DNA of 64,000 bases, from NCBI GenBank assembly GCA_009760855.2, contig WPIO01000016.1, positions 4,166,001-4,230,000 of the forward strand, in the 5' to 3' direction. Source of the stretch: Cristatella mucedo (taxonomy: Eukaryota > Bryozoa > Phylactolaemata > Cristatellidae). A model generated the notes under the pieces. It worked only from the letters and a program-made list of their open reading frames with translations. It had not been told where the DNA came from and did not search any database. Made by a program: the position numbers and the translations under genes. Below, piece by piece: positions 25,470 to 57,984 of this stretch (positions are counted from its first letter, which is position 1; each line of letters begins with the position of its first letter).

Positions 25470-25558
25470 CGTGATTACTGTTGAACAGGATCAATGCCAC
25501 GAGATCATATCGAATGCTTCTTCCACCATTTTTGTAATATCTACCTAAGTCAATCGTC
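25470..25558 (-). CDS. USP-like gene exon: L-D-L-x-x-Y segment and start of the His box
   Basis: The exon has one base, 29 codons and one base. Its acceptor GTCTTCCAATTCCTACAG|G and donor CACG|GTAAGTGAG are among the best in the window. It reads TIDLGRYYKNGG and then RYDLVALILFNSNH, corresponding to USP L-D-L-x-x-Y followed by Y-x-L-x-A-V-x-x-H-x-G. The residue at the usual His position is Phe, with an N-S-N-H three to four residues later, so the His box may be altered or shifted. The next exon must begin with two bases and would carry the G-H-Y motif. I could not identify it. A LINE occupies 23.6-24.6 kb on that side. Confidence 0.8.

Positions 25559-57984: not shown

Follow-up and report, generated by a model that had tools for sequence, protein, structure and literature searches.

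Human USP15 and USP4 have the layout DUSP-UBL-USP, and a DAHEF-like motif is expected in USPs. In PMC10867860, the oxyanion asparagine is called "extremely conserved" in USPs, where it is poised for the oxyanion. The same text reports that the fourth critical residue, an aspartate, is the more important one in 4 of the 5 USPs tested (USP1, USP15, USP40, and USP48), and that the active enzymes USP40 and USP48 naturally have Asn as third and Asp as fourth critical residue.

The gene described here, W, is encoded on the minus strand of the window, by which we mean the whole 64,000-nucleotide stretch of DNA that was analyzed (C77:4166001-4230000, within a 572-Mb genome). An adjoining sister copy, paralogue U (C77:4292779-4241042), located 17-69 kb upstream in the same orientation, shares the exon layout of W, which for this reason appears to be an addition to a familiar enzyme family and not something new in kind. 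There is little doubt that W is a genuine USP-family gene. Judging from its sequence, we lean, with some reserve, to the fuller reading that it is a real and intact animal gene, one of 2 tandem paralogues, whose product would be a divergent, active USP nearest to USP4 and USP15. A new, divergent, tandem-duplicated USP member is an ordinary kind of thing; the point of wider interest is that the oxyanion asparagine is lost while the rest of the catalytic set stays.

Exon structure of gene W

W has at least 11 exons spread over positions 57984-14495, perhaps reaching to 7578. The 11 exons join with 10 of 10 junctions in phase and with splice sites present at every junction, giving 472 codons free of stops. 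A sequence-only reading of the window had proposed 8 exons on the minus strand; all 8 are present at the coordinates it gave, but as a full model the proposal fell short, having missed at least 3 others (33472-33311, 32311-32162, and 14580-14495). All exons named below are on the minus strand and are given in window coordinates.

The N-terminal domain, possibly a UBL, begins in exon Z (57846..57984), which is entered in phase 0 and ends G|; its counterpart in U is at C77:4292779-4292632, with a blastp score of 0.001 and 0.086 in a second search. The domain continues in exon A (52302..52471, QLELHLLKQYNLPKNLPIILWG..., E = 2e-8), and exon B follows (48451..48554, AVLIRYVDCPTD..., E = 5.4e-6). 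Exon C (37918..38074, E = 0.003) encodes the Cys box, GICGLLNFVPDGVCYANAAIQ, containing the catalytic Cys183 of the 472-aa product. Exon D (35649..35819, CFYSITPLVEYL...) scores 0.078 by blastp and 2.2 by tblastn. Exons A through D all have counterparts in U.

Exon E (33311..33472) is one of those absent from the sequence-only model; it runs from phase 0 to phase 0 and scores 0.47. Also absent from that model was exon F (32162..32311, E = 8.7e-5), which has an AAG acceptor and encodes the first zinc-type C-x-x-C pair (VCEGC). For the start of exon F, an acceptor at 32304 was rejected as out of phase, and an internal ATG start and a two-base trim were both dropped after provisional use; U pointed to the acceptor at 32311, which is in phase. 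Exon G (29191..29249) contains TVEEMF, and a counterpart searched for in U was not found. Exon H (26775..26903) encodes the second C-x-x-C pair (WECASC), and matches a fragment downstream of W at 1.9e-7 and U at 3.6e-4. Exon I (25470..25558, IDLGRYYKNGGRSIRYDLVALILFNSNH, E = 1.15e-5), with a counterpart in U, encodes the catalytic His443. Exon J (14495..14580, TTIRKVDRTWYQFNDHSVF...), another that the sequence-only model did not have, reads WYQFNDHSV, in which N458-D459 are critical residues three and four; it matches the downstream fragment at 5.9e-8 and U at 3.4e-4.

A last exon, K (7578..7613, ETPRYLLSYGI and a stop), is weak, and we regard it as tentative because it was picked by pattern from 138 candidates (306 in a looser list) and no clear counterpart is seen in U. 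Adding K takes the Pfam UCH match to the end of the profile (254/254) with 34.9 bits versus 32.6 without it, and 2 rival candidate ends leave the match unextended (32.7 and 32.8 bits). A start-codon exon was searched for upstream of Z and not found. Neither an Rfam scan nor a tRNA scan gave any hit in the window.

Membership in the USP family

That the gene is of USP type had been claimed in the sequence-only reading, and the HMM search against Pfam UCH (PF00443) bears this out: the completed 472-codon product matches with E = 3.8e-7 and 30.4 bits, for which the curated cut-off is 23.9 bits, over profile positions 2-238 of 254. The original 8-exon join, taken without its exon 1, has an E of 1.4e-4 to UCH, but its 22.0 bits lie below the cut-off. 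Adding exons E and F to that join with provisional F starts, before J was included, lowered the 22.0 bits to 17.6 and 19.1. We take the peptidase family of the product to be C19.

A profile made from the 2 sequences W and U finds USP15 (4.9e-7) and USP4 (2.6e-4) as its best matches among PDB chains, and aligns the Cys box, fingers, His, and Asp of both in register. Partial W alone finds USP15 in the PDB at 0.0095. At E ≤ 10, the catalytic part of U taken by itself matches no PDB chain, and partial U does not match UCH. In a set of 5.8 billion proteins, no relatives were found at E ≤ 1e-3 (1329 candidates) or at E ≤ 10 (5074 candidates). Viral contigs yielded no relatives, NCBIfam yielded no match, and none of the papers listed by a literature search deals with this gene.

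The genome has at least 51 UCH matches at E ≤ 1e-3, and in this exon-by-exon profile search the window is not among the matches listed. Strong USP15-like matches are located elsewhere in the genome, on contigs C199, C233, and C7. Because these other USPs exist, W is an extra gene and not the genome's USP15. W is a strongly diverged multi-exon gene, invisible to ORF length and to exon-by-exon profile search, that was readable from raw sequence and is confirmed by its tandem paralogue.

The domain that precedes the USP catalytic domain may be ubiquitin-like (UBL). The N-terminal part scores 5.9 bits against the USP15 UBL, reached by 1 of 2000 shuffles, which is weak and in the expected place; hhalign gives the same comparison E = 0.037 with a probability of 1.4%. 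Against ubiquitin the score is −0.7 bits (479 of 2000 shuffles). The N-terminal part alone has no match in Pfam or the PDB, and a simple motif scan found no DUSP domain upstream.

Catalytic residues kept and lost

Both copies keep Cys183, His443, Asn458 (Asp in U), and Asp459, and both keep 2 C-x-x-C pairs in the fingers, C329/C332 and C374/C377, which in W are the VCEGC and WECASC of exons F and H and would be expected to bind a zinc ion as a zinc ribbon. The Cys box is GVCYANAAIQ in one copy and GICYANSAIQ in the other. His443 aligns with the GGH of USP15, and after the His there is WYQFND in W and WYQFDD in U. The losses are common to both copies as well. The oxyanion asparagine is gone, with DGVC (W) and EGIC (U) instead of GNTC and a glycine at the place of the Asn; the GG before the catalytic His is gone, leaving FNSNH and TKTH; and LKRF is gone, with LAPYLIASLV in its place. 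A DAHEF-like motif is not recognizable by eye. The loss of the Asn, GG, and LKRF, with no visible DAHEF-like motif, could mean that activity has been lost.

The same gene might then encode a USP-fold protein with no catalysis, which would bind ubiquitin or some partner but leave it uncut, a possibility that we find doubtful and yet take seriously. The oxyanion Asn to Gly change and the missing GG and LKRF in both W and U are in its favor, as is the precedent of human USPs thought to be inactive, for which PMC10867860 names USP39 and USP50. Set against these are the Cys, His, Asn/Asp, and Asp that both paralogues have kept at just 34% identity, and also the history of USP53 and USP54. As told in PMC12037411, those 2 were once called inactive, their residues before the His being missing, and proved active, although they do keep the Asn.

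Between a dead enzyme and one that is altered yet active, we lean slightly to the latter because the N-D pair in W, or D-D in U, is kept, and because the fourth Asp is important in other USPs, though the Asn is missing. In such an enzyme, Cys183, activated by His443, would attack the isopeptide bond that follows the C-terminus of ubiquitin or of a ubiquitin-like modifier. Asp459 would help to stabilize the intermediate, a role we propose for it since W does not have the oxyanion asparagine of other USPs. The label deubiquitinase in the sequence-only reading names an activity that, with this asparagine missing, we infer; substrate, role, and expression would likewise be predictions. The exon structure, the paralogue, the USP homology, and the residues kept and lost are observations. 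If active, the product would offer a natural experiment on what a USP requires in its oxyanion hole.

The modifier might be other than ubiquitin, in which case W would be an active peptidase for a SUMO-, ISG15-, or NEDD8-like protein, as USPL1 is for SUMO. The stretch before the His is shorter than that of USP15 (ALILFNSNH and GMIVATKTH), and USPL1, described in PMC8983731 as having no blocking loops, cuts SUMO; but the nearest sequences to W, USP15 and USP4, are ubiquitin enzymes, and we give the idea little credence. A broader proposal, which we consider rather unlikely, is that W and U represent a tandem USP-fold family, seen so far in one animal genome, in which the Asn has become Gly within an elongated Cys loop, the loop before the His is shortened, and the oxyanion hole would be rebuilt with the fourth critical Asp leading, possibly to act on a non-ubiquitin modifier.

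The tandem paralogue and the downstream fragment

Of the 11 W exons, 10 have counterparts in paralogue U (Z, A, B, C, D, E, F, H, I, and J), arranged as they are in W. From Z to J, the lengths differ between W and U by 9, 3, 0, 12, 9, 6, 0, 9, 0, and 0 bases, so that every difference is divisible by three. Exon phases match between the 2 genes, the phase into H excepted, which in U is uncheckable because exon G was not found there. Exon B of U (C77:4283998-4284101) appears to use a GC donor (GCAAGT), not GT.

Each exon was sought in 20 stretches around the window (264 kb). At E ≤ 1e-3, 6 of the 11 exon peptides are found (A, B, F, H, I, and J, counting the minus strand alone), compared with 3 of 1100 shuffled exon peptides in the same DNA with both strands counted. 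Exons Z (0.086) and C (0.003) are weaker, yet their best match is U. For exon D, 2 sites elsewhere in the 264 kb give better values than the U counterpart (0.26 and 0.85 versus 2.2), and the same is true of exon E (0.092 and 0.15 versus 0.47), so the U counterparts of these 2 depend on position between neighbors, phase, and splice sites. W and U are identical at 151 of 439 aligned residues (34%). Their differences per codon position are 0.487/0.380/0.599, with third positions favored. By NG86, dN is 0.63 and dS is 2.3, which is saturated, and dN/dS is about 0.27. U supports the W exon structure independently, and we take this to be the decisive evidence.

When the genome is searched with the W protein, C77 shows matches beyond W itself, again on the minus strand. 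Downstream of W there are counterparts of exons H, I, and J alone, which we designate H', I', and J' (C77:4159296-4147571, loci L028 and L029). We call this fragment degenerate because a TAA interrupts the frame of I' and because H', read from the acceptor that H uses, would begin in the wrong phase. Genome-wide and outside C77, W has 3 weak matches, with E of 0.055 (where UCH has a match as well), 0.30, and 4.75, and U has one, at 0.21. From these searches there would appear to be no other convincing family member.

With so plainly decayed a relative downstream, W too might be thought a decayed pseudogene in a tandem array and not a working gene. This is very unlikely, given 472 codons without stop or frameshift, splice sites at all junctions, and, versus a paralogue at 34% identity, a third-position bias and the above dN/dS, saturated dS included. 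It is hardly credible that W is a chance join of unrelated open stretches picked for resemblance to USP motifs, for although the exons were chosen by motif, phases are matchable by choice, the separate evidence for each of exons D, E, and G is weak, and E and F alone cut the UCH score, the paralogue is collinear, the exon peptides match at 6 of 11 where shuffles do at 3 of 1100, and the model completed with E, F, and J reaches 30.4 bits versus 22.0 for the original join.

Repeats and other features

The region had been described as a repeat desert, a description that has to be given up, since 21,391 of the 64,000 window bases match elsewhere in the 264 kb. Within the introns from Z to J, 15,186 of 42,074 bases are repeated, compared with 6,030 of 20,474 in the remainder of the window. 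Among the 11 exons, only I and J have such a match, which is what the downstream fragment would produce; the other 9 have none.

Long GA-rich and GAGACA simple repeats are found in the W introns at 36434-36653, 52893-53155, and 56615-57051. Similar stretches, on either strand, near 34740, 32490, 15850, and 13160 of the window are possibly tRNA-derived SINEs as judged by eye; one has a tRNA B-box-like GTTCGAATCCC, and ARAGORN calls no tRNA anywhere in the 64,000 bases. At the low end of the window, a GC-rich LINE-like element contains a 339-aa open frame (1025-2044, minus strand) with an RVT_1 reverse transcriptase domain (E = 6.8e-13). The genome has at least 91 homeodomain matches, from 150 of 167 candidates scored, and these mark it as that of an animal. 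Among those listed, 10 are in C74:112605-194490, several of them about 4.8 kb apart with equal scores, which suggests a tandem array of a homeobox gene.

Comparison with known USPs and related folds

Josephin (PF02099) was considered as the family of W and rejected, with 13.8-15.1 bits versus a cut-off of 26 and a match confined to the His region. The likeness is short, around the His (HATTIRK...WYQF), at E = 0.021-0.054.

A kinship with USP53 and USP54 is suggested by the elongated Cys loop and by the missing GG before the His, but the hmmsearch scores do not bear it out. According to PMC12037411, the loop preceding the catalytic Cys is elongated in these enzymes, and the conserved residues that normally precede the catalytic His are missing. 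Both keep the oxyanion Asn, whereas W is without it. By hmmsearch, USP54 has 3.9 bits, a score that 2 of 1000 shuffles attain, versus 31.4 bits for pieces of USP15, reached by 0 of 1000 shuffles with none above 6.5, a comparison that favors USP15 in that its pieces are the stretches already aligned by the W and U profile. USP54 is not among the PDB matches of that profile at E ≤ 10. A direct hhalign of that profile with USP54 is weakly positive, the His region being aligned with a single-pair E of 0.00069 and a probability of 27%. USPL1, as PMC8983731 presents it, is like the predicted W product in being a USP-fold enzyme with strongly altered loops.

The nearest sequences are those of USP15 and USP4. 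W and U differ from them in the Cys box, where NTC is replaced by an elongated loop ending GVC (W) or GIC (U), and in having neither the GG before the His nor LKRF. The large second UBL insert of USP4/15 is absent from the W model. Shared with USP15 and USP4 are the Cys box G-[LI]-C-G-L, the C-x-x-C pairs of the fingers, Y-x-L-x-A, the His, and W-Y-x-F-[DN]-D.
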